DNA of 64,000 nt from Branchiostoma floridae (taxonomy: Eukaryota; Chordata; Leptocardii; Amphioxiformes; Branchiostomatidae): NCBI RefSeq assembly GCF_000003815.2, contig NC_049992.1, positions 10,152,090-10,216,089 of the forward strand, given 5' to 3'. The notes below the pieces were generated by a model. The model had not been told where the DNA came from. It made no database searches and saw only the letters and a list, made by a program, of their open reading frames with translations. This document shows, piece by piece, positions 24,954-59,500 of this stretch; the stretch's first letter is position 1, and every line of letters begins with the position of its first letter. A program made the position numbers and the translations under genes.

Positions 24954-24967
24954 ATGGCCGCCACCAT
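24950..24967 (+). promoter_or_regulatory. TISU/YY1-like translation start of RIOK1
   Basis: CAAGATGGCCGC differs from the TISU consensus SAASATGGCGGC by one base and overlaps a YY1-type core. TISU start sites work with very short 5' leaders, so transcription probably starts close by rather than at the TATA box 360 bp upstream. The element is also present in the broken copy A (12,688-12,705). Confidence 0.45.
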
Positions 24968-35325: not shown

Positions 35326-35573
35326 NNNNNNNNNNNNNNNNNNNNNNNNNNNNNNNNNNNNNNNNNNNNNNNNNNNNNNNNNNNNNNNNNNNNNNNNNNN
35401 NNNNNNNNNNNNNNNNNNNNNNNNNNNNNNNNNNNNNNNNNNNNNNNNNNNNNNNNNNNNNNNNNNNNNNNNNNNNNNNNNNNNNNNNNNNNNNNNNNNN
35501 NNNNNNNNNNNNNNNNNNNNNNNNNNNNNNNNNNNNNNNNNNNNNNNNNNNNNNNNNNNNNNNNNNNNNNNNN
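35326..35573. other. Assembly gap (248 N)
   Basis: A run of unknown bases. Gene order across it should be treated with caution. Confidence 1.
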
Positions 35574-37318
35574 CTTGCACATTTATGGGTTGTGGTCACG
35601 TCACTATATATGGGAATGCTGTGTCTTCGGTATGAACAGAAATGAAGGGAGGGCTATACTTGTTTGGTCCCCTTGGGCAATATTCTGTGGCACTTCACTT
35701 TGTTGATTAGCGTCTGTTGTCTTCGATCCAACTTAAGGTTTTGTAACGATAGAGGTTCAAAGCTATTGATAACCATGGTCGTTTAACAGTGAACGCCTAA
35801 CGATAAATAATGAATGTGAGGCAATGATCTGTCAGCTATATTGAAGTTGTCGTGAATAGATACCTTTGGACTGAACCCGTTCCATAAGATGTCAACCGCG
35901 TCCAAGACGCACCCACAGAGGTGACAGGACATGATTGACAGCATGAGCAAGCGTTGTTTACCTGTGGCCAACTCCACAGTAGTACTCTGTCCTTGATCCA
36001 AGTGTTTATCTCATGATACTGGTGTCATTTCGTGTGTAGATTTTGTTGACTATGGCAGGCCGTTGTTTTGGTTGTTCTTGCGAGGTAGTCCATCTTCGCT
36101 TACTGTAGTTAAAGAAAATTGCAGTCACGAAATGTTTCAAAGCGAACATATTTCAGGATATCATTATATAGCAGTTATTATATTAGGCACGGGAGGTGCT
36201 AAGGCAAGGTAATTATACTGTATATCACTTCTTTATAAGCATTTGACAACATCGCTGTTAACATATGTGAGAGTCTGCTTTGTTTTTTCTTCACAACGCC
36301 AGTGGGTAAATACCGATGCAGCCTGTAGTACTCGCCATAGTTTGTCTGTAATCCCATTGGCAGATGCGGACAGGAAAGCAAATCGGTCTGACCTACTTCT
36401 CCGCGTGTCTGCTTCCAGAGGACATTGCCCCCTGCTCGATTGTAAACACAGTCACGTCAAAACATGGCGGTGACCTAGAAACGCTGTAGTTCGCCATACA
36501 TATCTCCCGTCATGTTCAATTTACGGCGAGGGAAAGTTATGACGTTGTTTTGTGGATTTGTTTTCCACTTTTACCACATTGTGTATACGATGATGGTTGA
36601 TACGGTGGATGAATTTGTGGTTGATACGCTTTGTGGAGTTTAAAGGGGCGTTGTCCACTGGGGGTGTATTTTGCAAAGACTGGTGGGCTATATATAGTGG
36701 TGTTTTGTAAACTGATACTTTTGGATAGTACTGAACAGGTATCTTGTCTTGTAACCTGTGGGAATGCGCGGCAATGGGGAGAGATTATGCTGAATAACAT
36801 TTAGAACTTGACATATCATGTACTATTCATCCGATGATTGTGATGTCGATTATACTTGTGTTCTCAGGTTGAACTCTAAATTGAATAACTGCAGGCTTGT
36901 TTGTACTATTAATGTCAACTGGTAACTGGGGCATAACCAGGGAGCATATCTGGGGTATGGATACAGTTTTTGTCACGCTTGTCTGCTTTGTGCACGTGCG
37001 CGGTTTCTTTTGAAACGTTACTTCTTTTTATATTTACCGGATACCCTCTAACATATATCTATTAGTCAAGATATCGAAATGTTCGCAAATGCAAAACTTT
37101 GCATAGTAATTTGAAATGAATGGATCCATTGCTTCTGTAACAAACTTTTTTTTCAGTATAATTCACAAATGTATCTAGTGTCTTAGAGTGACGAAACGAA
37201 AAAGATGATCATCATGGTTAGTCAACTTATACTTCTGATATTCTTATCGGGACGCTCGTCGTTCAGTTATCATAAGGAAATATCATAGGAGCTCATGAGC
37301 TTTTGTTTTCTAATTTCA

Positions 37319-40300
37319 GAGGGCTTTTTCTTCGTGAGGCCCTCGGCAAGACGGTCGATTCACCGCAAGGGGTTTTCGCAGTCAACCTCGTACTCATCCT
37401 CGGTGTCAACTTCAAAGTCATCATTTTCATCCTTCTCCTCCTCTTCATCTTCAGCTACGAAGTACCAACCGAGTTTGGTCAGGACTACATCAACAAGTAA
37501 GACACAAATCACAAAATCTGTTTAACCGTAAAACAATAATCAGTATAGCATGGCGATGATGCATTCAATTTCATTCTTTGCAGCAAGGAGGTAGTAGCAT
37601 TTAGGGTTTGCGTTTTCCTTTTAGGTTCGAGTACATACTCCAGTGATGAAAGTCCGGCCAGCTCTCCAGCACCGGAGACTGCAACTGCCGAGTTCCTTTC
37701 TCCTACAAGCTGGTTCCAAACATCGCTGAAGACATCCGAGTCCGACCATCAGATGGCAACACTGACCGCCACTGAAGAGTCAGGCTCCACTCGTCAGTCA
37801 TCGGCGATGGGAACAGAGGGGTCCTCCAACAGCAGGAGAGACTTTTCACCAGTGCGCGGCTGGACGGAAGGATGGATGAAGGTTCAGACAGCGAGTGGCC
37901 AGTCTACAGCTACTACTCGCACGGGAGAAGGTACTCGTGGTCCGGGATGGGTGGTGGAGGACTACTGTCTATTATGAGCAACTGGAGGGTGTGGGGGAAG
38001 AAGGATGAAGCTCCCAACGGTGGCATGACTGATGCAACTTCGATGCACACAGGTACTATTTCACAATTCCTAACATTTTCAATATATTCTGGAAAAGTTA
38101 AACTGTAATTTCCAACACGAAAATTGGACTTACCCCAATTTTCAACTTGATTGCGCTTTTGTTTCTTCAGAACAGAAGTCCATGAAACGTCCATGAGATG
38201 TGTTTACTTGAAGTCTTTATCCAAACATTGAGAAATGCGTGAAATCCTACTTTCAGATGGGTGATGTTTACGACAAATTGTTTGATACACGCAATGCGTA
38301 ATTGAAACGGGAGAAGGGAGAAGAAGTTGACATTCAAACCAACCCCTGCCATTTCTTTTTATACAAAAAGCGTCATCCAAGGCCTCAACAAAGTTCAGGG
38401 GTTCAGCTCGACATGAAGGTATTCACAGCTGGTCAGAAGGGTGGATGAAACGCCACCGTGTAGGAAACAAGCATATTTCCGCATCGACAGGTACATTTTG
38501 GACAACAAATCAATTGGTGATGCATGGTTGCGGTGATGAAGTCAGTTACACTGGCTGTCGTTCGTACTACGAAAGTTGTCACAACATTACGTCACCGTGA
38601 AACCAAACTGTGTTAATGGAGGGAATATAGGTTCTCTTGGAAAGAATGTAGCGGGTTCGCTTCTTTAAGGCTGTGGTCAAACGGATTTAGGAAAAAAATC
38701 TAAATAACGTATCCCCTCGGTCTCTCCGTTAATATGGTGTCTTGTAGTCTCAGAGGTGCCTCCTGCACTGCGCTTCGACAGGACGCCTTCTCAGCTGTAG
38801 ATGCCGCTGATAGGGATAAAGGCTTGATCCAAGACAATACCTCATTTCTTGCTACTCACTCGCCATTGTCTGTTTTAGTTGTTTTATCAATTGAATACTA
38901 ATATTTATTATCATAGGTGTACATAAAAGATAAACTATATTTTGTATATGGAGAAAGAAAAAAAAACAGGAAAAACAAATGAATGCAAGGAACTTTTGAA
39001 GGAAAAGGTGGGTTGATAGGTCTAAGTATTTCCATTTTCCCGAAATTCTAACTGTCAAATCACACAGTGGTCTCCTTTGCAGATAAAGACGCACAGTTGG
39101 AGACATCCAGTGAGACAGTGGCGAGGACAGAGCACGCAACTGTGTGCCAAACATCATCTTCGACTGTCATCACATCACAAAGTACAGTAGTCGGACAGGA
39201 AGCAGGATTGCGCGCCGACAGTGCCACGTCTGGAGACCAGTATGGCGACCTATCCTCGGGGAAAGGTTTTGGAGATTCAGCAGATCATCTCCAGGTATGT
39301 GCATGTTCGTCCAACACAAAAATACTGGATATCATTCTGCAAAAAAAACTACAGTAGATATGTAAGCCAGTATCCTTTGCCCGTGCCTGTGACCCACTCT
39401 CCGTTGTCTATGTATACATGTTGGTCTTATATGAAGCTACCTGTGTCCGAGAGGATTTGTAAATATTGCCCCTCAAATGCTGTGGAAGACGAGAGTCATT
39501 TTATCACTAATTGTTCTTTTTATGATGATATAAGAAACCAACTATTTATGAGTGTATCCAAAATACACGCTTACTTTCCAACTATTCCTGACAATGAAAA
39601 ATCAATCCCACTATTAAAATCAAAGAACCCACACATTATAAAAGAAGTGGGTAAATTCGTCTTCCACTGCCTAAAGAGGAGAAGTCTAACCCAACAAAAC
39701 CAGTATAATGTACACTAGCATAGCATATAGTCATAGAATGTAGTTCCTAGCACCTTTGTATTTTCCTTATTTTACATGTTGTTTGTACCTGCAATTAGCC
39801 CTCGGGCAAGAACTTGCAATAAACATATCATATATAAAGGAAGGCCATGGCCACCAAAGGGCACCATAACCAATCTACCTTTCTTTACATTACATTCAAG
39901 AAGTTTTTTACATCACGAACTTTGTGAGTTGGCAGGCGTGTACGACCTCCGTGTTTGACAAATTCAAAGTGTTAAAAGTGAAATATTTTGCCTTTTTAAA
40001 AAGTTTTACCATTACGTACATTCTTGGTACGGTAAGTTTAACAACGCTCGAAATTGAATCGTATGTTCTAAGCAGGACGAAGAAGACGAAGTCAAAGTAA
40101 ATGGCGCAACTGTCCAAACCTGGAATCAGAACATCGACGCAATGGAACAAGAGGTGTCGCAAGTTAGGGACGTCCAACAGTCGATAACACAGCATAGTGA
40201 GATGAATGGAAATGTGACGGTGGCAGCCTCAGGCAACGATACAACAACTACCGAGATGACGGTGGTGACGGAAGATTTCCTCAAGCAAACCGATACACAG

Positions 40301-43300
40301 GGAACGGGAGAAGACCTGGAGGAAGACCACAAAGAAGGAGTAAAGAGTCAGGTGGCAATGGTAGTTAGGCAAGAAGAAACGGAAGCTATGGAGCTCACAG
40401 AAACCTCTCAGACCTCCTTCAGCGAGAGCATGGTCCACAGTGAGCAAGACAAAGTCGTGATTGTTGAAGAGAAAGTAACTAGGGAAACTGGAGAAGATGT
40501 AGAGTCGAAGGAAGATCACAAAGAAGAGGAGACGATTAGGGACGTGGCTGGCCTAGAGCAAGAAGAGACAGCGCAAGATGAAGTGTTGATGGCAGTGATA
40601 ACTACTGAAGGCACCACCACCGTTACAACGGAGAATGATGCTTCGCAAGAGGTTACAGTATCTGTGGTCTCCTCGATGGGTGAGATTCGAGACAAACAGC
40701 AGAGTTCATACGAAGATCAACACAGTGGTGAGGTGGCAATGGCGGTGAGGCAGGAAGAAAAGGAATTTGTGGAGCTCACGAAGTCCCAGACCTCCATCAG
40801 TGAGAGCATGGCCTACAGCGAGCAAGACAAAGTCGTGATTGTTGAAGAAAAAGAAACTAGGTCAACTGGACAGTCGGAGGAAGATCACAGTGAAGAGGAG
40901 ATGATTCAGAAAGTGGTTGGCGTAGAGCAAGAAGAGACAATGCAGGATGGAGAGATGACGACAGTGATAACTACTGAAAGCTACACTACCGTCATAACGG
41001 AGAGTGAAGCTTCACAAGAGGTTACAGAATCCGTGGTCTCCTCTATGGGTGAGATGAGAGACAAAGAGGAAAGAGGAATGCAGAGTACACCCGGAGAACA
41101 TCACAGTGTTGAGATGAACGTAGAGGAAGATAACATCATACAAGAAGTATCCTTTGAAGAGACAGAAGAAGTATCAACGAGGCCGCGAGAAAGAGGAGGA
41201 GGAGCTACAGCGGGGGCCTCATGTCGTACATCCTTCCTGATGAGGAGGACGAGGAAGAAGAAATGGAGAGAGATACTAGTAGCGAAGAAGTGTCCATGGA
41301 GGTTACTGAGGAGTCATACATGGAGACCAGCAGTGATCAAAGCGAAACAGTCATCGCTGGGGTGCAAGAGTCAGAGAGTACAGAAGTGAAAATTACGACT
41401 CAGGGCAACGCCGAATCGTCCCAGCAGGAGTCATGCATGGAGACCGGCACTGATCATACCGAAACAGTCAACTCTGGGGTGCAAGAGTCGCAGAGTATGG
41501 AGGTGGACATATCGATTCGGGGCGACGCCGAATCATCCCAGACAGTGACCACTGAGATTATGACAATAACTAGCACACAGCAAGAAGAGGGGCAAGGTGT
41601 GTCTACAACGTCCTCTGATATGACGATGGTGGTTGAGACTAATGAAGTCGTGGGTGTAGAGAAAACATCTCACGCAGCTACAAGTACCGATACAACAGTG
41701 GAAGAGTCTGCCCAGTCAACAATGACTTCAGAGGATGTTATTGTTGAACCGCAAGAGCCCCGAAGTACCGAAACCATTAAGACCAAAAGAGGCAGACCAA
41801 CAAATGAAGATAGGCGGGCGAGTGCCACCACTAGACGTAAGTCATACTTTCTCCGCAATAAGATGAGTCCTAGAGTTGCTAAATTGCGCGCGGGCAAGGC
41901 ACTTGAACCTGCAAAAGCTGGACAAGGACGAAAGAAAGCTGAGGAAACTGAAACTCGAAAGAGGAAGGGAGTACATGTTGAATCAAATAGCACAGCGGTA
42001 ACACTGAATAAGAAACAGAAAACCGCGATCAAGAAGACAACAAGTGCGACAGTAGAACAAGGCATTTCATTGGTTCTCAGTAGGGTGGATGAACAGCAAC
42101 ATTCTGACGAAGGAGATGTCTTGGATGAAGATGAAGATACTAAGGTAGCAGAAACAATGGAGGAGACTATGACAGTATCTGAAACAGGCCCACGAGATGA
42201 GCAAGACGAAGAAGAGAAAGACGAAAGTGCGATAGCAGAGGGAGAACCGGCTCTCGGTGAACAGGCGGAGGCTCAAGAGGAAGGGACGGAAGAGTCCATT
42301 ACAGATGAAAGCAACATTACTGAAGTGACGGACAACGCCGTGAAGACGATCCATGCTGACGAGATTGAGGAATCACATGACCAGGAAGACTTCATTGAGG
42401 AGCTGCCCGAACGGTCTGCTGACCAAGAAAAAGTCGAAGAAGAGCATCAATATTCGACTTTGACAAACGTTCAGACAGTCACAGAGACCTCGGCTATTAC
42501 AAATGAGACAGAGGAGCACATAAAAGAAATAACGCAGGGTGATGAGGGTGAGGTAGTCAGAGATAAAAGCATCACTATCGTGTCTGCACGAGTAGTTGCT
42601 GAAACACCCAGCAAAGGCGATTACTGGTTTAGGTCTCGTCGTAAGAGGCGTTTGTTCGACACAGATGATGGCTACACAGTCGGTCACAAGTCAACAAGCC
42701 GAAAGTACCCCGTCCAGGATGAACATAAGAAACCCTCGGGGTCTGTAGAAGAATCAAATCAAGTCAGTGTCATTGAAAAGCGCAAGAAGGAACGGAAGGA
42801 ACGCCAACCATCGGTCAATGAGGACAAACAAGAGGAAGTTCTTGCACTAGGTGAGGCATCAACAATCGAAACAGCTATTGCCACGAAAAGCAAAGCGCAG
42901 GATGAACAGACGACTAAGTCTGTCAGTAAATCAAACCAGAAAAAGGTCATCACGGTTAAGACTGCCACGAAAAGGACCGAGAGGGCAAGCAAAGATGTCG
43001 ATGGGCGAAAGAGATCTTACTGGTTGAGGGGACGGAAAGCTGTCCGCGGCCCCGACACGGAACCAAAGGTTAGGACTTCGCCTGCAGCCAAGGCCAACAG
43101 CACGAAAACTGTCACCGAGACACGGCAAAGCAACGTTGAAGGTTCACTGAAGAAGAAAAGCTTCTTTATACTGGCATCAACTAAGCCTCCTGCCTCTGCG
43201 GCGTCTATCAAAGGGACAGTCTTGAATAATACTAGTAAAGAACCGGGTGATCAGATGGAAGCTTCTGTAGAAGAGGTTTCTATCGTTGATGCCGAAGCTA

Positions 43301-46300
43301 AAGATCCAAAAGCTAATGAAGAGGTGACCGGTGAGGGCACAGAAGACGAGGAAAAGATTGAGGAAAATGATAAGGAAATACATTCCCAAGGCAAGCAAAC
43401 AACAATGGCAAAGCTAGAGGTAGTGCAAGAAGAACATGAAGAACTTCTAGGAGAGGAGGCGGAAGAGGAGGCGGAAGAGGAGGCGGAAGAGGAGGCGGAA
43501 GAGGAGGCGAAAGGGGAGGCGGAAGAGGAGGCGGAAGAGGAGGCGGAAGAGGAGGCGAAAGGGGAGGCGGAAGAGGAGGCAGAAGAGGAGGCGGAAGATA
43601 AAGCAGAAATAGCAGAACAAGATGGGGTAAGGGAGGAAGAAGAAGAAGCAGAAGGGGAAAGTGAGAAGGTAATAGAAGACGAGGAGGAGAATGAAGAAGA
43701 AGAAGAGGAGGGGGAACCAGAAGAGGAGGAAGCTGAACAAACGCGAGCCAAAACAAGTAGCCAAGGACGCCGAGGAAATTATTGGCTGCGGTCGAAAACG
43801 GTCTACTATGGCAGTGGGCCCAGTGCGCGAAGTGGCTTCCTTGCTGCCATTGCTACAACTACAATGTCTAGTGGTGCAAAACACATTGGCAACAAAACCA
43901 CTATGAAATCGACTGAGGAAACGACAACTACTGAAAGTGACGTGGATGACGAATCAGAAAAGTTAGATAAAGAAGGAATGGAACAAGAAAAACACGAAAG
44001 ACAGGAAGACAAACTAGAAGATGAAGTTGAAGTTGAAAAGAAGGAGGAAGAATCAGTAACAGTCGATGAAGAAGTCAAGGAACAAGAACAGTACGAAATA
44101 CATGAAGAAGACGCAGTAGACGAGGAAAAGAAGGAGGAAGAACGGGAAGAAATACAACTTGGAGAAGAGCAAACATCAACAGTACAAGACGAGGCAGCAG
44201 AACAAGATCAAGACGGAACGGTCGATGATGGAGAAGTAATGGAACAAGAACAAAATGAAGAAGAGGAAGAAACTCTAGAAGACGTAGATAAGGAAAATGA
44301 GGAAAGTGAGGAACCAGAAAAGGCTGTTGAAGGAGAAGTAATGGAACAAGAATTTGATGAACATCAGGAAGAAGAAATTGAAGATGAGGAAAAGACGGAG
44401 GATGAGCAGGAGGAAATACAAGAAGAGCAAACAACAGAAGTAGAGGAAGAAAAAGCAGAACAAGCGGAACAAGAACAAGATGAATTAAGACAGGAACAGG
44501 AACAAGAAGAAACAGAAGTGGTAGACGAGGAGACAATAGAAGAGGAGGAGGAGGATGAAGAACAGGAGGAAGCAGAACAAACGCGAGTTAAAACAAGAAG
44601 TCACGGACGCCGAGGAAATTATTGGCTGCGGTCGAAAACGGTCTACTATGGCAGTGGGCCCAGCGCGCGAAGTGGCTTCCTTTCTGTCATTGCTACAACT
44701 ACCATGTCTAGTGGTGCAAAGGGTATTGACAACAGCACCACTATGAAATCGGCTGAGGAAACGATAACTACTGAAAGTGACGTGGATGACGAATCAGAAA
44801 AGTTAGAAGTAATAGAAAAATACGAAAGACAGGAAGACAACTCAGAAGATGTTGAAAAGAAGGAGGAAGAATCAGTAACAGTCGATGAAGATGTCAAGGA
44901 ACAAGAACAATACGAAATACATGAAGAAGACACAGTAGACGAGGAAAAGAAGGAGGAAGAACGGGAAGAAATACAACTTGGAGAAGAGCAAACACCAGCA
45001 GTACAAGACGAAGAAGCAGAACAAGATCAAGACGGAAAGGTCGATGGCGGAGAAGTAATGGAACAAGAACAAAATGAAGAAGAGGAAAACAATCTAGAAG
45101 ACGTAGAAGACAAAGATGAGGAAAATGAGGAAAGCGAGGAAGCAGGAAAGGTTGTTGAAGGAGAAGTAATGGAACAAGAATTTGATGAACATCAGGAAGA
45201 AGAAATGGCAGATGGGGAAAAGACGGAGGATGAGCAGGAGGAAATACAAGAAGAGCAAACAGAACTAGAGGAAGAAGAGGCAGAAATAGTGGAACAAGAA
45301 CAAGATCAATTAAGACAGGAACAAGAAAAAACAGAAGGGGTAGACGAGAAGGCAATAGAAGAGGAGGATGAAGAAGAGGAGGAAGCAGAACAAACGCGAG
45401 TTAAAACAAGAAGTCACGGACGCCGAGGAAATTATTGGCTGCGGTCGAAAACGGTCTACTATGGCAGTGGGCCCAGCGCGCGAAGTGGCTTCCTTGCTGC
45501 CATTGCTACAACTACCATGTCTAGTGGTGGAAAGGGTATTGACAACAGCACCACTATGGCATCGACCGAGGAAACAACAACAACTTTTGTTTCTAAGAAT
45601 AGCTTTGTTGACGAATCAGAGAAGTTAGATGAAGAAGGAATGGAACAAGGTCAATACGAAAATAAGGAAGAAGATACACAGGAGGAAAGGGAGAAGGAAA
45701 TACAAATCGAAGTGCAAGTGCCAGCTGAAGACGAAACAGCAGAGGTAGTGGGACAGGGTCAAGAGGAAAGACAGGAAGATGAAACACCGATGGAGGAGGA
45801 GGAGGGACCAGTAGAGCAAGTAGCAGATGCAGAAGAAGCAGACGAAGACGAAAGAGAGGAAAGAGAATTAGATAGGGAAGAGGCAGAACGTGTAGAAGAG
45901 GAGGGGGAAGATGAGGAAGAAAAGGAGATAGAAGAAAGACAGGATGAGCACAAGGATATACAATTTGAAGTAGAGCAAGGACCAGATGAAGAAAAAGAAG
46001 AGGTAGTGGAAATAGAAGTGGAAGACCAAGATGAAAGAGAGGAAGGAGAATCAGATAAGGAAGAGACAGAAGCTGTAGAGGAGGAGGGGGAAGGTGAGGA
46101 ACAAAAGTACAAAGAACGAAAACAAGTTACAAGTGCAGTCGGACGCCGAGGGAACTATAGCTTGCGATCAAGGACAGTCTACTACGGTAGCGGACCAAGT
46201 GCACGCAGTAGTTTTCTTGCTGCCATCGCGACTACTTCTATGTCTAGTGGTCAAAAAGGAAAATTCAAACCAAGGCACACGACGCAGAATCAAAAGAGGG

Positions 46301-49300
46301 AGCACGGGGCCACTCAAGGGTCACAAGCAAAATAACAGCAATGACATCACAAGGCGAAACGCCCGAAGCGACGGTTATTGAGGAGGCTGATTTGGAAGAA
46401 GAGTCGGAAAAGGTAGATCATAATGGTGAAGTTCAAAACATCACCGTATTATCAGAGAAAGGTGAACTGTCTGGCTCTGAACTTCAAGCAACGACTACAT
46501 ATTTCATCACGAAAGTAACTGAAGAAGGGACTAGAGGAGATGAGCTGGCGGTGGATGTGGATACTATGTCACAAAGGACAACAGTTTCAACAGTGACCAC
46601 AACTAGTCGAGCTTCTACAGATAACACGCATATGGAAGATGCCGTGTCCACAGCAGGAGAGCAGACCATCACTGAAGTATATGAAGAGCAGGCTGACTCC
46701 GAAGCTGCGGTTATCGCTGATGACAATGATGAAAGTGATGGGGATGGCAGCGGCATTGAAGAGATTTCAGATGCCGCTGCTGAGGATTCGTCCCATAAGT
46801 CCAAGGTTGAGGAGAATCTGATTACCATGGCTATCCAGGAAGATCGTATTGAGAGAGAATCTGCAGCTAAGAAAGGAAAGGCGACAGTAGAAAGCTACAC
46901 AGAGCAAGAAGCTGGTAAAGTAACTGAATTTGAGGAAGGCACGGGAGAGGACGCAGAAACAGTGACCAGGGGGAGAAAGGGTGGCACAAGGGGAAACTAT
47001 TATCTGCGTTCTAAGACGGTGTACTACGGGAGTGGGCCAAGTGCAAGAGGCGGTTTCAGAGCTGCCATGGCTGCCGCGGCCATGCGAGGGGCTGTCGCTG
47101 ACCGGACCAAAGCGTCGAGCGCAAAGGCAGTACTTTCAAGGAAGGCCAAGAAAACAGATGTTCATCAAGCATCGAGTGAGAATCCAGAGGAATTAAATGT
47201 TGTAGAACAAGAAGCAGTCGTAATGGCTACTAGCAGTTACGAAGAAGAAAGTTCTGAAGAAATTCAAGAGTCGTCGACGGATGAAACCGTGACTGTTGAG
47301 AGCCTTGAACAACACACAAGTGAAAGTTCAGGGGACACGACTGAAGACCAAGATGCGTCAAATGCAGAATCTGAAGACAAGGCGAATGAACAGCAAGACT
47401 CTGAGGACAGAGAAGCACACACCTCAGATACTCAGGCAGATACGGAAGTATGCGCGACAGTTGAGAGCCCTGATGACCTTGCTGTCGGACAAGAGACAGA
47501 CCAAACTTCAGAAGAGAGTATGGACGACCCGGAAAGCCCCCAAACGCAGGAGGTTGCTGACGTTGAACAGACAAATAAAATGGAAATGCCTCCGGTCCCC
47601 AAAAACGTATCTAAGAAACGCAAGCATGATGAATCATCGATTGGAGAACGTTCCACTAAAGGAGAGGGAAGCCAGAAAGGTTCAAGAGGTAACCACAACT
47701 TGCGGTCAAGGACAGTCTACTACGGCAGTGGACCAAGTGCGCGTAGCGGCTTTCTTGCTACTATCGCGGCCGCCACAATGAGCAACAGACAAGGACAATC
47801 TGTGACATCACGATCAGCAAAGAAGTCATCAAGATTTGTTATGTCATGTGGCAATACAAGTGAAAAAGAGCAGACGGAAGAAGCAAATGCCGTTACCATC
47901 CAAGATGACGAGAACGGCCCGTCAGAAGAAATCTCAAAATCAACTGAAGTTCAAGGAGAAGGAGCTGAAACAGTTTCCACCACGATTGTAGAGGGCATCA
48001 CAGATGAGGATATTGAGGGCGTCTTGGAGGAGCTGTCAGAAAGTGCTGCCAGCGGGCAGATGTCTCTTGAGGACGCTATGGCGGAGGCTGCGTCTCCCAA
48101 AGATATTCTGACAGAAAACCAGGAAGAGAGCGGGAACGAAATTCAGGCTGAACATAGCACGGCAGATGCTATAGAGACTTTGGACGACGCCTCTTCTATC
48201 GACGACGACCCCTCTACAACAGTGCAAAGTTTTCAGACCAGTGACAAACAGCAAGAGGTACAAAACATCGTGTCATCGTCTACATCAAAAGTGGGTAGGA
48301 AGAAGAGAAAGGTCGACTACACCGAGACAGTTGGACAGAGCGAAGAAAAAGCAGATTCAATGGATGTAGCATCGTTGAGGCACAGACAGAAAGTATGACA
48401 GATGGAGAAGGATCTGAAGAGATGGTGGTAAGGACAAACACACAGAAGGAAAGTGCTGTGGAGTCCAGCGAATCGCCTGGCCGTTCATATTGGCTAAGAA
48501 AACGGACGATCGCGTATTATTACTCAACGGGACTTGAATCTCCCCTGGCAGTGGTCACAAAGTCATCAACCGTGTACGAGACAGACAGCAAGAAACGCAA
48601 CAAGAGCTCAGAGGCAAGTACCAAGGCGACTAAACGAGCAATAACCACCAGCAAGGAGGTGGCATCCAAGAAATCTAGAAAGGAAACCACCGTAGTTCAG
48701 ACAGAAGGAGAGATCAGTTCACCGTCTGAAACGCTGGAAGAATCCTCCGCATCTGAAGCTCAGAGTACAACGGAACAGGAGGTATCGTCGACAGGGTCGA
48801 TGGAAGTGGAGACAACTTCTGTTAAGGTGACTTCATCTGACGACAGCCAGAGTGAGAAAACCGAGACCATTGTGATGGAGGATGGAGAAACATCCAGCAA
48901 AACGATTCTATTCGCCGACCCAGGAACAGCCTCTACGTCGACTGAAACAACAACGATCATAACTAACGTCGAGGTAGGCTCAAAGGGACTCGGTGCCGAC
49001 ACAGAGACGCACGAAGAAGTGATGACTACCACATCAAAAACTAGGATGAGAGGCAGTCGAAAAGTGGGACCAAAAACGGTGACAAAGATATCCACACTGG
49101 AAAGTGTGGAGGAGCTTCCAGAGGACCAACATGTAAGTACATGTAACCTGTTCTACTATAGGTAACGTTACTAGGTCAACGTTAATGAAGAAAATTGAAA
49201 CATTTGCTTGAAAGAGAATTAGCGCTAAGTTTGAATCTCCATCATCATTCCATACACTTTGCTTAGTATGAGTGATGACTAACTTCGCCTCCTTATTAAT

Positions 49301-49866
49301 TCCCAAGGACGAGAAGGAAGGCGAAGCCATTTCAGCAGTCGAGACTGAAGAGGTCATGACAGCAAGAAGCGAAGAACAAGGGTGTGTTCACTTATTTGTT
49401 ACTGAATATTCAGATTAACATTAGCACACATAAAACCTTTATGCTCAGGGGTATCGGTCGCACATTCTATTGGTCACAAACTTTTTTCACATTGTGTAGG
49501 CATTCTTATTGCTATAGTCAAGGCAGATGTCATAGCATATATATTCAGTGTTGTTAAAGTATGGTCCGTTGTTTTTGGTATTCATTGCATTACGTCATCC
49601 CTCCCTCTAGAACAACATCTGAATCTCTCCTGTCAACTGGCAAGAAATCGACCAACAAGTCCAAAACAGTGAAAACTACTACAGTGAAGACTTCAAAGAT
49701 GAAGACGACTTCATCGAATGTTTCAATGTCACACACAACCGTCGTGACCAAGTCTTCCTCTTCAACGAGGAACATCAACAGCGAGGGATCTTTGGGCCAG
49801 GTATACTCCATGTCCCTTAGACGGATGGGAGACGGAAAGAGACGTGTGTACACCTGGAACACTTAA
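37319..49866 (+). CDS. Large acidic repeat protein of unknown family, probable multi-exon gene (5' end not found)
   Basis: Exons that join with matching phases and GT-AG borders are 37319-37496, 37625-37930, 38371-38490, 39083-39294, 40076-49132, 49308-49381 and 49611-49866. The first three are phase 1 at both ends and the fourth starts in phase 1. Early exons are Ser/Thr-rich (SQSTSYSSSVSTSKSSFSSF). The third has a basic/aromatic HSWSEGWMKRHR. The giant exon encodes some 3,000 very Glu-rich residues with repeated LRSKTVYYGSGPSARSGF blocks. The last exon is Ser/Thr/Lys-rich and ends SLRRMGDGKRRVYTWNT. I recognise no catalytic domain, signal peptide or membrane segment. Charge, an AT-hook (KRGRP) and basic patches suggest a nuclear or chromatin/lamina-associated protein, which is inference. 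The second exon could instead extend to 38,052 with a frameshift. Confidence 0.55.
39300..39870 (+). mobile_element. 3' fragment of a non-LTR retrotransposon (reverse transcriptase tail)
   Basis: A reading frame ending at 39,718 contains RICKYCPSNAVEDESHFITNC, the zinc-binding C-terminal motif (R-C-C-ED-H-C) seen after many LINE reverse transcriptases. The sequence runs into a 3' end with ttgcaataaacatatcat near 39,815-39,835. Only the last 130 or so residues remain. It sits in the intron (39,295-40,075) of the acidic repeat gene, in the same orientation. Its left limit is unclear. Confidence 0.7.
40076..49132 (+). CDS. Giant ~9-kb exon of the acidic repeat gene, with three frame breaks
   Basis: The acceptor is TTCTAAGCAG|GAC and the donor CAACAT|GTAAGT. 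Four long frames follow one another: 40,076 to about 41,200; about 41,200 to 46,335; about 46,260 to 48,398; and about 48,370 to 49,132. They overlap briefly, and the encoded composition and repeat motifs continue across each break, so this was one reading frame. Each break is a -1 change (one base missing, or two extra); two lie at A5 runs near 46,253 and 48,347. Domains in order: a tandem 127-residue acidic repeat (40,352-41,113), Glu/Ser/Thr-rich sequence, an AT-hook KRGRP (41,785-41,799), three diverged basic motifs, a Glu-Ala array, three acidic plus motif units, then further motifs at 46,980, 47,679 and 48,475. The breaks may be sequencing errors or true decay. Confidence 0.7.
40352..41113 (+). 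repeat. Two tandem 127-residue coding repeats
   Basis: The unit begins VAMVVRQEE (40,352) and VAMAVRQEE (40,733), 381 bp apart. Both contain SESM, SEQDKVVIVEEK, EQEET, VITTE, ASQEVT and VSSMGE in the same order. The period is a whole number of codons, so the array arose by in-frame duplication. Confidence 0.85.
43453..43599 (+). repeat. 12-bp coding minisatellite (Glu-Glu-Ala-Glu)
   Basis: About twelve copies of gaggcggaagag encode EEAE units, with two variants reading EEAKGEAE. This is a young, nearly perfect in-frame array in the giant exon. Confidence 0.9.
43765..46251 (+). repeat. Tandem acidic-plus-motif units, about 0.7-0.8 kb each
   Basis: The block GRRGNYWLRSKTVYYGSGPS, then ARSGFLAAIATTTMSSG, occurs at 43,765-43,875, 44,605-44,715, 45,418-45,528 and 46,141-46,251. 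Between the blocks lie acidic spacers of 729, 702 and 612 bp. The first two are clearly homologous (EEESVTVDE, KEQEQYEIHEED, EEIQLGEEQT, EVMEQEFDEHQEEE). The third is more diverged. The motif block is far better conserved than the spacers. Confidence 0.9.
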
Positions 49867-52800
49867 GACGAACACTGCTACTCCTAAGGACCAGTTTGTT
49901 CAGGTTTATTCAAATTGACCCAATAATTGTTGTGGGACCAATAGTTGTTGATTTCTTTGTGTTACAAACGGCTACCTCCTTTAATGTGTGTTACAAGAGT
50001 GGTTAGTTCTAGTCACTACAGTGAAATTTATTAGACGTTATACAGTCCAACATGGCTACGGTGTGGTATAACATGTATTGGTGTTTGTTTGCTTAATAGC
50101 CTACTAGATGATTAAGATAATGTGTATGCTAGTGGAGGTAGTGGCATATATATTCATAGATGTAGGTCCAAGGAATTGGATATATTTTGGGAACTTGTCA
50201 TCAAACTAGAGGTTGAATCTTTACTGACTTTTCACGTTTTGTACTTTGAAATTTGTAGCGGGAGTAAATGATAGGGGTGTGCGATAGCTAGATGCAAAGT
50301 ACATGGATATTTCTGAGTTAACATCAACTGTCATATTTCCAACGGATGCCATGATACTGCCACTTGCGAAAAATACATGGATTTAAAGAGACGTACGAAT
50401 GCATCAGTAATCCTGAGGTATATACACTTCAGATATCTAGGTGTCCAAAACAATCTTGACAATGCTTTTTTTATGTAGTGACATTATGACAACTGGTGAA
50501 ATTATGAGAGTTGATGTTACAATGTTATGATAGTGTGAGATCTGTAATGTTAGAATTAGCTTCAGTGTGTGGACAAGAGTTGCACTATGCTCCTTACTAA
50601 TGAATCAAGTACCAATTTCAGTAAAAGAAAGACAAAAATACATGGAACAGTCTATTACATACTTTGCTTTAATCTGAAGTGGTACAAAAGTCTGTGTGAC
50701 ATCTATGAAAAAAGACAACAATCATGAAGTGTTACAAATGTAACAGCAGCAGTTTACAAAAATATCTCCTTCAACGTGGAGATCCTCTCAATATGTGGGA
50801 TGCAAAAGGCTCTTATATTACAAGTTGATGGTTGGATTGTTGGATGAAGAAAAGGGAAATGTAACGTTTATGAAAATCTATAATCAAAAGTTGATGGTTG
50901 GATTGATCCTTGGATATATGAATAAAAGGGAAATTAATGTAACACGTATAATATGGACTCCTTTGGTTACCTTTCCATTGTATCAATGCCTACAATGTAG
51001 CTTGCACCACTTTTATACATCTATAAGCAATACAATGTAGATACATACAAGGATAATTGTAACATATCCCTCAAGCAAACCTTGCTGGTTTTGACTCTGG
51101 CTTCCCATAGATACAACAGTGTTATATATAAAAGGTTTCAAAGAAATATAAGGGGAGGGGGACATACATAATACGGTTGGCTCCCTACTTGACATGTATC
51201 GGCATACCACACTGACACAGAAAATAGTGAAGCTGCAACTTGTTTGGTCCAGTCTTAATCAGATGTAAAATGTAGGCGCTTGTGACACTCAGAAATATAC
51301 TCGTGTATCATAAAGCTGAATCCAGCAGTATGAATAACAACGTTGCAAGATAAAGGTCTTGTATCATGTATTTTCTTTCTTTCCTGAGCCCACTGTGATG
51401 GTTCAGGCCCCTTAAATTAATCACTTAACACGTTACTGTCTTAAGCATATAGAAGGAAAAATACATAAATGATCACCTCATCTCTAAGTTAAAATCAAGC
51501 CAGAACTCAATTTTTCCCAGTGGACATACAAGAGTCACCAGCACCAGTTTTCTAAGGAACATCCCCACCCAAATACAAAATGATTAATGTAACCTTTACT
51601 GCAACTGATTTCTACTTCATAAAATATTTCTAAACATACCAAAAAACAGTCTTTGCTGTTCCCTATAACTATTGTACAAATTCATTTCATTTTTCATGAC
51701 AAAATAAGACAAGTAAAAAAGTGACAAGGTTTTGTTTAGAAAAAAATTGTAAATGACAATCATTGAAAGTCATACAAAAGTGAAGTTTAGGCAGAGTGTA
51801 TCTTACCATGCTATGAAGAAAGAGACTTGTGCTAAGTTTGTTCACACTTCAATATTTTATGGTGGGATGATTTTGACAAAAAGAAAACTTCCAAATCTAT
51901 CCTGCATGCACATCCTGCATGTAGGTTACATTTTCACTCATTAATTGTGCCCTGTACAGTACATTTACACTTTGCCATTCTTAATGAATTTAAGAACCTT
52001 CTTTGATATACAAAATAAATCATTAATCAGTTACACTTATATACCACTGCACTGCCCATATACGGTAGTTTTTGGGTAGTTGTTGTTCAAGTACATTTTA
52101 CTTTTTGACACTATCCCAATACCTTAAAATGCAAATACACGCAATTTGCTGTCTATATAATACTGCCTCTGATGGTGCATAGCATAAAACTCGTCAAAAT
52201 AAAACATGAATGTAACCCATTCTATGCTGAATTCAGTCAAAATGTCACTGATTCAAGAAAACAAGTGCTACATTCTGTAAACATAAAAGCAGAAAAGTGC
52301 CGATTTGTACTGTCCCTGTCTGGCAAGCTGCAAGTATGCATCACTGATGATTTCTACTTTATCCAGACATACCTGGCCTTGATTTACAGCAATACCACTA
52401 TATCGCAAACAAACACTGTAGAGACATGTGATGTTACTTTTCAAAGCACCACAAAGTACTACAAATCTGTGTAGAATGATGTTCCCATGAATGGATATGG
52501 AATGAGATTTCTCTTTACTGGAATGAGCCTCCATCTTCGTCAATCATTTCCTACAATTAATCTCTATTCATAGGAATTAGTTAAAAACAAGTTCTGATAT
52601 CCTAACAAATATAATAAGAGTCATTGCACTAATGGTCAATACAAATATGGTTCGTCTAGTATCACTTAGTTTACATCAACAACCTTACTATTATACAGAT
52701 CAATTCTAGTAATCCTGTCAACTAGATTGTCAATCCTGTCAAATACATTGTCAATCCTGTCAACTAGACTGTCAATCCTGTCAACTAGATTGTCAATCCT

Positions 52801-53565
52801 GTCAACTAGATTGTCAATCCTGTCAACTAGATTGCTACATAGTTCATCTATTGCATGACAAATCCTCTAGAACAGAACTAAACACTTATCTTATTAATAG
52901 GAACAGATCATGATCAGGCAGGTTGAGAATGGGTGTGTTTGGAAAAAATTGGTCATCAGAAAATTTTGATATGTACAATTACATTTTGGCAAAAAAGTGC
53001 AGCATGTAGGGTTGACCTAGGGTTATGGAATGCATCCCACAACATCCTCTCCTACATAATCCTGGTTTCTACTGTCAAGAAAGCTGGACATTTTTCTGTA
53101 AAGCACCCTTAGGCCAGAATTGTGCAGGTCATAGCATTATGTTTTTATGATTCCCTGTATTAAAGTTTCTGTTATGTACATACACCTGTAAATATAAATC
53201 CTAAAATGGGTAACATTATATACATGTTGAAATACATGAAGGGCATTACTCAGTGACTCTTGTGAATTGCCATGCATCTATTGTACAACAAAATCAAAAT
53301 CTCTCTTGTGCATGTGGCCAAGCTGCTTTCATTAATATCTTGGAGAAGATAGATACTTATAACATCCTTCACCCTTTTTGTATTTGTCCCGCTAAGGATT
53401 CACAATGACAAGTGCAAAACTTTCAACCAAATCACAATCTTTCATTCTTTAACATACAATACAATCCCTGACATACGTAAAACAGTCTTCACATACATTT
53501 CTCCCATACCATATGCATCAGGCACCCTCATACCGAGTTCCCTGTTCATGCAACTGTCTGTACAA
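49867..53565. other. Gene-poor AT-rich region between the acidic gene and NADK
   Basis: This holds the 3' UTR of the acidic gene and then AT-rich spacer. Seen: a tandem duplication of period about 66 bp (50,823-50,945, repeating agttgatggttggattg) and a 21-bp minisatellite at 52,711-52,834. Since NADK is on the minus strand, its 3' UTR is at the right end. No exon is supported. Confidence 0.55.
52711..52834. repeat. 21-bp minisatellite, about six copies
   Basis: The unit aatcctgtcaactagattgt plus c repeats from 52,711 to 52,834 with single-base variants. Copies touch without spacers, so it is a plain tandem array and not a CRISPR. Confidence 0.9.
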
Positions 53566-56500
53566 CTAGGCCTCTATGCTGCAGTCACTGTCATCCTTCA
53601 CTCTCCCGTTTGCCCCCTCGTTGTTATTGAACGCTCGCTGCGGTCTCCTGACGTTCCAGTGGAGGCACTCTGCGAGACTGTCGAACCAGTCGCTGATCTG
53701 ATCAAGCTTGCAAATTGATGGAATCGGAAACTCAGAAGTGGTGATCCTTACACTGCAAGATCAAAAACAAAAACTGTTCAATGGGATGAAACAAAACAAT
53801 TTCAATTTCAGATCAAGATCAGTGTGTTCAAATACATGCAAGTTAACCACAATAACTTTTGAACCACCTACATTGGCTATAAGTAGCAGCAAGAAGTAGT
53901 TTCCAGTCATTCTACCCTGATGATGGTGTCTGATGGACATCGAAACGTTGGAAGTAAGTACTCCCTTGTGCCTAAATAACCTTACTATATGAACTTTTGA
54001 AGTTTTGTGATGACAAAGAAGTGGTTTCCACACACCTGTCTCCCACTTTAATCTCCTGTCTGTTTCTACCATCCAGGGAAACCCAGGCAGAGCCTCTGGA
54101 CTCAGGGGAAACCATGACCTGAAGATAGAAAATAATCTACATCAATGTATGATAATGTGTGATATAAAACCATGGACAGTTGACATGTTGTGTTAAATGA
54201 AGCATATGATGCGCACGCATGTATCTACCAATCTTTTCACATTGATAAAAGAAGTTGAATCAGTCTTTACTGCTAGGTACTAGAGTATTTATTTGGACAT
54301 CTTAGACAGCACCCACTGTCTTTTATCAGTGAAATGAAAGTAAAAGAATACAAGACTTTACGGAACAAAGAACACTTAACAAAACAAAGAACACTTCCAT
54401 ATATCAATAAGAAGTATTCTTTGTTCTGTAAAGTCTTGTATACTTTTATTTTCATTTCACTGATGAAAGACAGTGGATGCTGTCTGAAACATCTGAATAA
54501 ATATTGCAGTATCCAGAAATAAAGATTGATTCAACTTCTATTATTCAATTTCCTGGATGACACATCTGCACAAACATATCCACATTAATCTTTCTTTAAT
54601 TAATTTGTAGTCTTTCTTGACTAAAACGGCTAAAAAAATGTCAAAGAACAGCCGAAGCCTAACCTCTGCTTGGAGAGTAGGGGACTTGGCCCTCCTTACC
54701 TTAATCTCCACACCAGCGGGCACTACGATTGGTCTGAAGGACAGGGAATGTGGACAGATGGGGGTGACCATGATGGCGGGAACGTTGGGATGGACCATGG
54801 ACGCTCCTGCAGCAACAGCGTAGGCCGTGCTGCCAGTGGGGGTGGACACTATCAGACCTGCATGTATGGAAACCACATGTTGCATTTGCTTGTAACATTC
54901 ACCCTCGCAAAGCTCAGTTCAATAGTCAAAACTCAGGGGAAACACTGGAGAAACACATCCAGCAAAATAGAAGGTATCTCCTGTGTGTATCTTCCCTAGT
55001 CAAAGGGTTTCTAATGTTTGCTTTGGTAGGAGGATACTGTATTACATATCTGAAAGATTTTCTTATGTATGGAAACCACATTACATTTGCTTGTAACTTT
55101 TAACACGAAAGATTCACATCAATATAAAAGTTGTGATGGAAGAAAAGAAATCCCAATAGAGAAGAAGGCAGGTCCAGATAAAACATGAAGTAGTTACAAG
55201 GGTGTGACATTCAAAATGTTGCACACTGTTAGATTAGTACACCAGTGTAGATATTTTGTACAGCAAAAGTGGTCGCGTCGCATTGGTCAGGTGGACGTTT
55301 TGAAAAGGTCACTTAATGCTTACGTCAGTGGGAAAATTTTCGAGACCAAGAAAAAACGGTACACGAAGAGAAGGTCACTTGGGCAGGTTTGATTGTAGTT
55401 GTTAGTAATGCGTGTTATTTACCATACTTTGTACCTGGTGTAATTGATGTGCAAAAAAAATTCAAAATGTTACTTATTGCATGAAACAAAAAGGACTAAT
55501 GCTGGAATGTCTGAAGGGTTTGCTATGAGTCACTTACCGTCTCCCTGTACAGAGGTGACATGCCTGCCTTCCAGGTACAGGTCCAGGTGACACAGGTAGG
55601 GGGAGGGGCCTCTGTCGATCACAACTTCATTCAGCACCTGAATCTTCTTTGGTTTCTCTATACTGTTGATGTGACTGTCACATTCAGCGTCTGTTATCAC
55701 ACACTTCAACCTACTCCTTAGGGTTAGAGCTGCATGACCTGAAACAGACAGAGAAGAGTCATTAAAAATGACCATAATCCCAACATACCGGTAAAACACA
55801 ACACTTATTGCTTTAAGGTTGCCATTTTAATAATCACAAGGGTTGTTCAAGACTGTACATCAAAATTAACTGCCTTTGTCTGTTAGCTTCACCTGAATTA
55901 TCTTTTTGCAACTTTTATCTTGTCTTGAAATTTCTTAGGACTTTGCAGAGTCACATGGAAGCCAGTGTGAAAACTAGCTGACTGTTGCCAACCCCTGTGT
56001 CAGGGATCCCAGCAGCAGTATAATCAAATACTGGAAACTACTACTTTTGACATGAGCCTAATTTGAATCAATGTCCTTCAAATAAGTTTTCATTAAAAAG
56101 ATTGAAATATGACCTACCTTCTAGAACATGGTTGACCTGTGATTTAAAGTTGTCAAACTCAAAAGGTGTGAGAAATCCCAGGGAGCCCATGTGGAACGCC
56201 ATCACAGGGGGAACACTGCCCTGTTTAGAGAAAAAAAAACAATTATAACATGTCAAAATGTTTCTAAAACAAAAACAATCAAAACTGCAGAATACCTCAA
56301 GCCCATTAGTCTCACTTTATAAAAACTCATATCTGATTCAGAACAGGACAGTTTATCTTGATTTTACATTTACATGTAATGTCAATACTCATATACGTTT
56401 GCCTGGTGCCCAAAGACATTAAAATCATGTCACATATCAAACACGCCAAAAAGTAGTTACTCAAGCAACTGGATATGGTTCTGGAAATAGTCAGACATTT

Positions 56501-59500
56501 CAACTACTATCCAGTAGTTTTTGCCAGTGTCAGTTGCTTGAGTAACTACTATCTTATTACCTGGATGTCTAACCTACATCGACACATATTAAAACACATG
56601 AGAAATTCTTTAATGGGATTGTCTTGAACACCTGGATATTGAGAATGCACAGACCTCAGGGATTACTACTGATGCTGCTCTTTTAACCCACCCCTTCTTT
56701 ACATGTGGCGGTCCAAGGGCACGTTGCAGAATAAAAACAGAGTTGACGTAACTAACTAACCTGGAACAGTGAGGATGCCCACAGAAGTGTACCGTCTCCT
56801 CCCAGACAGATGATGAAGTCTATTCTGCCAGACAGGTCCTCCGTACCTGGAGTCAAGGGGGAGGGGGGCATTGGTAAGAAAATTTGTTTATTCCAAAATA
56901 TCATCTTACCAAAAATCGTTAAAAACGTTAATGGGACAAGAAAGATATTTATTTTGCAGTATAGCAGTCATGACTGTGACAGACTGTCCAATACATAATG
57001 CAATTTGTTTCAGTCCTTTTTCTAAAAGTAATGATGTGTACATTTCCATTCTGTAGTGCTTACCTTCTTTGAATGTGTTGAGTTTTTGTTTGATCGGTTG
57101 GAAACCAGAGTCATCTGCGATCATTTCATCCTCCAGTGTGGAGACTTCCACATAAACCACCATTCTTTTCTCCTGTAAGACCATTCATTCATTCAGTTAA
57201 TCAGTATCAAGATAATTCTTTATCAACGAAGTATTCAGCTAACAACACGGGATAACAAAGGTTTCCTTCATCTAAATTATAATGACCATATGAAGAATAT
57301 GCTGTCAAACATCAATTTCAAGATGTTATTTCTTAATCATCTAGTAGGAAGCTTTTTAACAATCTGAACCTAAGATAAATGAGTCCAGGCAATTAGTCAA
57401 CAATCAATAATAATATCTCTTGAATACTAGAAGAAAAAATCCTATTGTCCACTATTGTGGAAAAGCTCAATCAATCAATAAATAAATGGATAAATTCACA
57501 TCAATCCATACTTATTCCACAGAATTAAGTCCTATTCTTAGGAGAGACTAAGGGTATTCTCCAAGCTCTTTACAACCTCCCTCCCAGTTAACACCATCTA
57601 TGCATAGCCTCCTTCACAGACTTCAAGTGGGGCTGGCTTTTACTTCATGGTGACGGTTGCTGGTTGGCTAGTTTCAAAGTTGGCTAAGGTTGTCTTCTGG
57701 AAAAGGGAGTTTGCCTCCAGGTGGGACAAAACTCGTTCCACGGCAAACTACCTTCTACTGCAAACTCCCTTTCCCAGCAATAGACAACCTTGGCCAACTT
57801 TGAAACTAGCCAACAAGCACCCCCCCCCCCCATAAAATAAAGCCCAGACCCACTCAAAGTCTGCGAAGGAGGCTAATCCATGCAGTTCTTGGTAAAACCG
57901 CTGACCTGAACCAGCCAGGTGACCAGGTCCATGAAGGGCTGCACCACGGAGCACTCATGGATCTTCTTGATGATGAGAACACTGAGCGGGGGTTTGTTCC
58001 ATGTCAGCCGCTGAGACAGGGGGTCCTGCACGTGCCTAAAGAAGGGAAATATTTCATTTACATCAAATAAACCACTCTTTTAAAACAATCCTTATCCTTA
58101 TTTCATTTATCATCTACCACTACCACATTAAGCATATTACCTTACTTGTAAATTATTACTCATTGACTAATTAATTTAGTCTACTAGTATAAGGGAAGAG
58201 GGTTTAGTTTAAGCTACATATTACATTTTTCCTTCCTCCTGCACCTGGTTTTATGTATTGCTTTTGTATGATATTTATGTATTTTTACCAAATAAATAAA
58301 CAAACAAACAATCCAGGAATATAAAATGTTTTGTACATGTGTAAAGGCAAAGTTCCATCATCCTCAGAAGTTAGCTAGATAAGTATACTTTTTATATTTT
58401 TATATTTTAATCTTGAAAAATCAAAATCTCTATGCTGTGATAAAAAAAAAAGGTTGACAAGTCTTCAGACCTATTCTTATATAAGTGGTGTACTGTATAA
58501 GTAATGGCAACGAAACCTTTAAATGATCCGTCTCAGGAAAAACAGATGTGGTCCCAACTATTTGTTGCACTCAAATATAACTTGAAGACCCCTCCCTTAA
58601 CAAACTCTATAAGAGTAACACATTACTCTGATATGCATACAGTCGTTTTTTGACAGCTAAAACTTCCATATCCACATTTTCTTCTGTTGGAATGACAGAT
58701 TGACCAAAACTTATAAGTATTTGATATGTAAAACTGTATTTACTGCTGCTATGACAACAAACATACTATGTTGGTTGGTTGTCAAGCACAATGAATCTAA
58801 CTTGCATGTAAAACATCATATACACAACAATCAACAAAACAGTCTAAGATTGAAATACACATGACTTACGTAATACAAGATTTCTGTGGAAGTTTCATTC
58901 CCAGACAGTGTGGCATCTCTTATGTCACCTGTTGCACGTTGAACTTCTGACTAACTGAGTCCAAAAGGCCAGTAACATGGCATTCTCTATACACTCACAA
59001 TAAACAATGACACGACTAAAAAGTACAAACACAAAAAAAAGGCTATAACACTTCCTCCTCCGTTCAGCAGGTTCCCAGAAAAAAACATGACTTTTACCAA
59101 GAAAATTGCTAGTAGAAATTTAAGCTTAACACCGGGACAAAGTTGGCACAATGTAATGGTCCAAAGGGCACTCCTCACCTGACATAGGTCAAACCAAGTT
59201 TTGTTGACAAACTGAAAAATTTCATTTTAAATTTGTAGCTGAGGAACATTGTTTGGTCCTTAAAGTTTCTTCACTAGCTTAAGCTTTACTTGATTTTAGT
59301 ATGATCATTCTTATACTGAAAACACATGTAATCTGGAGTTAAACAAGTCATAAAATGTACCCCATTAGGTAAGTGGCATGTTCCATTGAACAAACATAAC
59401 ACTGACAAGTGGACTAGTCACCATTATGCAATGATGACTTTGTGCTAAAATAAGCCATACAAAAGAATATTGCTACACAGATACCTGCCCAGGAAACCCC

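Follow-up and report, generated by a model that had tools for sequence, protein, structure and literature searches.

The 64,000-nucleotide stretch of Branchiostoma floridae DNA analysed here (the "window", at 10.15–10.22 Mb of contig 14 of the 513-Mb genome) carries a gene whose main 9-kb region, positions 40076–49132, encodes 3,022 residues of Glu-rich sequence that hold ten copies of a short basic and aromatic motif. The protein is real and under selection, and it has no known family in Pfam, the PDB sequences or viral contigs. The core residues of the motif match, in identity and spacing, those with which foamy-virus Gag contacts the acidic patch of the nucleosome, and we find it plausible, with somewhat less than even confidence, that this is a nuclear protein of giant size, largely disordered, which could serve as a many-armed nucleosome tether. 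All features given below are on the + strand of the window unless noted otherwise.

A repeated motif in a giant acidic protein

The original prediction for this region, made by a model that saw only the sequence letters and their open reading frames (ORFs), had described an acidic protein of about 3,000 residues. The 9-kb region does encode an acidic chain of this size with ten motif copies; it is read as four open pieces, and the three frame jumps between them (below) had been overlooked. Glu makes up 14–25% of each open piece, and all four pieces are net acidic. The ten copies that had been named are all present, within about 10 bases of where they had been placed. Six are closely similar to one another: copies 4 (43768–43872, RRGNYWLRSKTVYYGSGPSARSGFLAAIATTTMSS), 5 (44608–44712), 6 (45421–45525), 7 (46144–46248, RRGNYSLRSRTVYYGSGPSARSSFL...), 8 (46986–47090, TRGNYYLRSKTVYYGSGPSARGGFR...) and 9 (47682–47786, SRGNHNLRSRTVYYGSGPSARSGFL...). 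The other four are diverged: copies 1 (41833–41862, RRKSYFLRNK), 2 (42616–42651, GDYWFRSRRKRR), 3 (43006–43038, RKRSYWLRGRK) and 10 (48479–48526, GRSYWLRKRTIAYYYS).

We number motif positions from an anchor Arg (position 0), whose codons start at 41854, 42631, 43027, 43789, 44629, 45442, 46165, 47007, 47703 and 48497; neighbouring anchors are about 230–280 residues apart in eight of the nine gaps and about 130 in the remaining one. The anchor Arg is kept in all ten copies, as is a Lys or Arg at +2, while Tyr at −3 and Leu at −1 are each kept in nine (with His and Phe, respectively, once), and the pattern [YH]-x-[LF]-R-x-[KR] is common to all ten. Such recurrence is far above chance as judged by 2,000 within-piece shuffles of the four open pieces: [YFH]-x-[LF]-R is seen 10 times in the 3,022 residues against 0.16 expected, and the narrower Y-x-L-R-[SNGK]-[KR] 8 times against 0.0025 expected, and no shuffle reaches either count. 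Six of the seven Trp residues in the four pieces lie inside the motif. Beyond the core, the sequence TVYYGSGPSAR, which spans T(+3) to R(+13), does not vary among the six close copies; copies 1–3 lack it, and in copy 10 it is altered.

Selection and recent duplication

For three of the six nearly identical copies, recent duplication explains the identity. Copies 4–6 lie in recent tandem duplicates, and their 19-codon cores differ at 0–1 silent sites (those of copies 5 and 6 are identical in DNA). Copies 7–9 are different in this respect. By Nei-Gojobori counts, which here involve few sites and silent sites that are near saturation in distant pairs, their cores differ from that of copy 4 and from each other at 44–86% of silent sites (44–92% when all of copies 4–6 are compared) and at only 5–12% of replacement sites, with ratios of replacement to silent difference (pN/pS) of 0.08–0.18. 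Since copies that have diverged silently retain their amino acids, selection holds the motif. In the spacers, comparison of duplicated blocks gives ratios of replacement to silent change (dN/dS) of 0.65, 0.32 and 0.38, so the spacers look less constrained.

These values bear on the earlier proposal that the motif is strongly kept while the spacers drift and that it is consequently the functional unit of the protein. The low amino acid change in the face of nearly saturated silent change supports the motif as the functional unit; the constancy of the motif is borne out by copies 7–9, which keep nearly all of their amino acids, but that of copies 4–6 is an effect of duplication.

Comparison with acidic-patch binders

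Among the proteins that bind the H2A-H2B acidic patch of the nucleosome, foamy-virus Gag is among the closest parallels. Gag R540 lies in the pocket formed by H2A E61, D90 and E92, and Y537 and L539 pack on H2A Y57 and A60 and on H2B V41 and V45 (PMC9040877). R540Q nearly abolishes nucleosome binding in vitro, Y537Q reduces it about 5-fold, and the Gag peptide reportedly displaces the H4 tail from the acidic patch (PMC12125541); R540A abolished binding to mitotic chromosomes (PMC6042332). The core Y-x-L-R-x-[KR] of our motif has the residues and the spacing of Gag Y537, L539, R540 and R542. The match of Y, L and R to the Gag contacts makes the evidence lean towards histones, and specifically the H2A-H2B acidic patch, as the partner. 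When a 9-residue core of the published Gag peptide is compared with the protein, motif copies take the first seven places among 2,983 windows; copy 3 ranks further down, and neither copy 1 nor copy 2 is among the 13 windows listed. The best score is 25, which 20 of 3,000 shuffled proteins and 91 of 3,000 shuffled peptides also attain, for a core that was picked after the alignment had been seen. The resemblance to Gag appears to be a specific likeness of contact residues and is not proof of kinship, and we infer that it arose by convergence. Gag also differs in having one such site, in a viral structural protein.

In the N-terminal tether of KSHV LANA, the anchor R9 is preceded by Leu (L8) at −1 and by Met (M6), hydrophobic but not Tyr, at −3 (PMC9040877). 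The chromatin-binding domain of IL-33 is reported to be very similar to LANA, and its binding is weakened by R48A (PMC6092330), a likeness taken here from the description and not from the letters; neither protein is described in these sources as a repeated array with acidic spacers. HMGN and the tardigrade protein Dsup are cellular nucleosome binders that also use arginine anchors (PMC12487698), but neither an RRSARLSA-like HMGN core nor the Dsup peptide PPRRSSRLT is found above chance in our protein (their best scores are reached by 1,867 and 753 of 3,000 peptide shuffles, respectively), and an H4-tail peptide likewise finds nothing above shuffles (its best score is attained by 1,109 of 3,000 shuffled peptides). 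In ELYS, an AT-hook goes together with a basic stretch in the C-terminal region that binds the acidic patch (PMC6499780), a combination with some parallel here; its motif is a different one, the motif here is present in ten copies, and the ORFs and exons that we scanned contain no ELYS domain.

The host has the partner surface. In the one B. floridae H2A copy that was read, ten of ten patch residues are present (Y50, V54, E56, Y57, A60, E61, E64, D90, E91 and E92; the host protein has a shorter tail and its own numbering is shifted by one), and the adjoining H2B keeps the V-x-x-Q-V contact pattern. Of the traits of arginine-anchor binders, the protein shows an invariant Arg and, in nine copies each, the Tyr −3 and Leu −1 that correspond to the flanking contacts of Gag and LANA and that the class as a whole does not require; the host offers an intact surface. 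A histone-fold match in the same genome, at C12:15196965-15197195, lies in an open frame of 8,944 amino acids, which is odd for a histone gene.

Signs of location

An AT-hook-like KRGRP, claimed in the original prediction, lies at 41785–41799, before motif copy 1, and is the only occurrence of the AT-hook core RGRP in the four pieces. Runs of the form K[KR][KR][KR], which resemble nuclear localization signals (NLSs), occur four times against 0.23 expected from shuffles; NLS-like sequences include KKRKHD (47613–47630) and KKRKVD (48300–48317), and one of the four runs stands beside frame jump 1. Together, the four runs and the RGRP suggest that the protein is nuclear. Binding to DNA, histones or the lamina had been thought plausible; the present evidence leans to histones, and the lamina gains nothing, as Pfam scans of the pieces and exons show no SUN, LEM or lamin match and the four main pieces contain no transmembrane-like stretch (the highest 19-residue hydropathy is 0.78), although such a feature might lie in a 5' exon outside the present gene model.

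Searches for relatives

The statement that the motif belongs to no known family holds for Pfam, the PDB sequences and the viral-contig scan. Pfam searches with the pieces and the separate exons give nothing above cut-off, the best being GMP_PDE_delta (E 0.031) with the piece of the last exon. In the PDB sequences, one motif stretch has a single match, to a microtubule-associated protein, at chance level (E 1.5), and a profile of the ten copies has no real match. A viral-contig scan with 54 residues yields 146 stretches with the pattern and no confirmed relative, and megablast of 43700–46250 against phage records finds no match. A search of the B. floridae genome with 47 residues of copy 8 finds six places at E ≤10, all of them close copies in the window; this search overlooked the diverged copies 1–3 and 10, so it speaks for close relatives only, and diverged relatives elsewhere could escape it. 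A back-translated DNA pattern matched no place in the genome, the window included, and so carries no information. Among the matches listed from the open-licence literature, none concerns this gene or any multi-copy acidic-patch-binding repeat protein. The gene may already stand in public annotation under an uninformative name.

Structure of the gene

Exon borders were chosen by eye as GT-AG borders with matching phases and were then verified. Four exons precede the main region. The first recognised, 37320–37496, is Ser-rich, has phase 1 at both ends and is open within ORF 37289–37525. The second (37625–37930) and third (38371–38490) are also phase 1-1 and have weak donors that agree with consensus at three and four of six positions, respectively; the fourth (39083–39294) is phase 1-0. 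The main exonic region, 40076–49132, is followed by a short phase 0-1 exon (49308–49381) and by the last exon (49611–49866), which carries the stop codon and encodes a basic C-terminus. Of the limits originally given to this region, 37319–49866, the end is accordingly correct, while the start falls on the final base of an acceptor site and is not where the gene begins. The 5' end lies further upstream of the 37320–37496 exon; an upstream partner exon was sought and not found, and ten upstream + strand ORFs (33.5–36.8 kb) have no Pfam match above cut-off (the best is DUF3515, E 0.01). A run of 248 N at 35326–35573, upstream of the first recognised exon, could hide a missing 5' exon.

Some details of the upstream exons may be added. 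In another frame, the DNA of the first recognised exon encodes a hydrophobic run rich in Leu and Ile (37276–37500); the Ser-rich frame was chosen because the hydrophobic one is not open in phase with the next exon. The second exon has an alternative frame that is open to a donor at 38052 and is likewise in phase, so its splicing may vary. The second and third exons share a W-[ST]-E-G-W-M-K sequence (GWTEGWMK and SWSEGWMK), which may be a second kind of short repeat in this protein. The intron before the main region contains an ORF (39191–39718) that has no Pfam match and presumably resembles the tail of a long interspersed nuclear element (LINE)-type reverse transcriptase. Within the main region, the acidic spacer before motif copy 4 contains a 12-base GA-rich tandem array of about 12 copies (43452–43598) that encodes EAEE-type repeats.

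The 9-kb region is read in frames 2, 1, 0 and 2, with three jumps in the same direction, at 41158–41389 (frame 2 to 1), 46248–46335 (1 to 0) and 48299–48398 (0 to 2), between which the frames are open for 264–1,691 codons. Introns were considered as their cause and rejected: when in-frame GT..AG stretches of 50–400 bp are required to have a donor that agrees at 5 or more of 6 positions and at least 9 pyrimidines of 15, 0 of 319, 2 of 208 and 0 of 243 pass at jumps 1, 2 and 3, and either of the two candidates at jump 2 would take out motif copy 7. The same measure passes four of the six accepted introns and fails two on the donor, so it counts as strict. A DNA search of the genome with 46060–48460 finds this region once only, and there is therefore no second copy to settle the matter. 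The likeliest explanation of the jumps would be errors of assembly in purine-rich tracts, and real insertions or deletions may be another.

Neighbouring genes

Positions 1–31613 of the window contain, by eye from the ORF lists, a block of RIO kinase, Ras/Rho-type GTPase plus BTB exons and fibrinogen-like ORFs, twice in tandem. The fibrinogen-like ORFs match Fibrinogen_C below cut-off (E 0.0019), and we take them to be intelectin-like. One RIO kinase ORF, at about 13.0–14.4 kb, is split between frames, and its tandem copy at 24930–26645 is open. Downstream of the acidic protein gene there is a 21-base tandem repeat of about six copies (52711–52834), followed on the − strand by NAD kinase exons (54544–56967; NAD_kinase_C E 3.1e-23, NAD_kinase E 1.2e-4, the latter just under cut-off).

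Discussion

In the tether that we propose, each copy of the motif would be a short arginine-anchor peptide, with Tyr −3 and Leu −1 packing on H2A/H2B, Arg 0 entering the H2A acidic pocket, and the Lys or Arg at +2 and the basic flank supplying added charge. The Glu-rich spacers would hold the arms apart and might occupy basic surfaces in competition with DNA or H4 tails, and with its ten arms the protein could link adjacent nucleosomes or counteract the compaction that is driven by the H4 tail.

A number of observations weigh against this proposal. The second half of the motif, TVYYGSGPSAR, is equally conserved in the six close copies and is left unexplained by a tether, and the acidic spacers could mask the basic motif. 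Outside the motif core, the similarity to Gag is at shuffle level: against the full Gag peptide of 16 residues, no window scores above 19, which 923 of 3,000 peptide shuffles and 583 of 3,000 protein shuffles reach, and similarity over the whole peptide is accordingly rejected as not significant; the 9-residue core that does better was selected post hoc. In Gag itself Y537A and R542A still bind mitotic chromosomes, only R540 being indispensable, and R542 is found in some foamy viruses only (PMC6042332). There is no strict sequence pattern round anchor arginines, and similar sequences need not bind alike (PMC10606924). The recent pair of copies 5 and 6 has 3 replacement and 0 silent changes in 37 motif codons, which gives no sign of constraint, and the three frame jumps leave the precise product uncertain.

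The first of these points is also the starting point of the rival that survives best, which we nevertheless consider rather unlikely, namely that the motif docks a non-histone partner (a phosphatase, lamina protein, importin or signalling domain), with TVYYGSGPSAR as the true site and the protein as a nuclear scaffold. The identity of T(+3) to R(+13) in all six close copies is more complete than that of Tyr −3, and the enriched NLS-like runs and the insignificant match of the full Gag peptide speak for it as well. Three of those six copies are recent duplicates, however, and TVYYGSGPSAR is absent or altered in the four diverged copies, in which [YH]-x-[LF]-R-x-[KR] is present; nor does any Pfam family or PDB sequence point to such a partner.

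Very high Glu content, great length and Ser/Thr-rich first and last exons would also suit a cytoplasmic or structural filament-associated protein, similar to neurofilament tails or trichohyalin, whose motif binds actin, microtubules or acidic filaments. The sole PDB match of the motif stretch, the microtubule-associated protein, might be cited in its favour, but at E 1.5 it is a chance match; the NLS-like runs and the AT-hook-like RGRP indicate the nucleus, Pfam finds no filament domain, and we regard such a protein as improbable. It is more improbable still that the gene is a decaying pseudogene with real frame jumps and a motif likeness due to recent duplication only. The three same-direction jumps without convincing introns and the recent origin of copies 4–6 would fit decay, but four pieces that have stayed open for hundreds of codons, intron borders with matching phases, and copies 7–9 with few amino acid changes against nearly saturated silent divergence would not. 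Finally, the region might be the tail with which the product of an already known nuclear gene, for example ELYS, binds chromatin, its N-terminal domains having been missed upstream. The RGRP, the basic C-terminus, the failure to find the 5' end and the 248-base gap at 35326–35573 would suit this reading, but it is a very remote prospect, as the ten upstream ORFs and the exons have no ELYS match and ELYS is described with one RRK stretch and not a ten-fold motif.

The nucleosome tether can be put in a more specific form, which we advance as doubtful: a lineage-restricted animal "nucleosome comb", in which ten arginine-anchor peptides on a polyanionic chain would bridge or space nucleosomes by many weak contacts, and which would have reached Y-x-L-R convergently with foamy-virus Gag. 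If this is true, B. floridae would have an acidic-patch binder of high multivalency to set beside HMGN, Dsup, IL-33 and the viral tethers as their natural counterpart.

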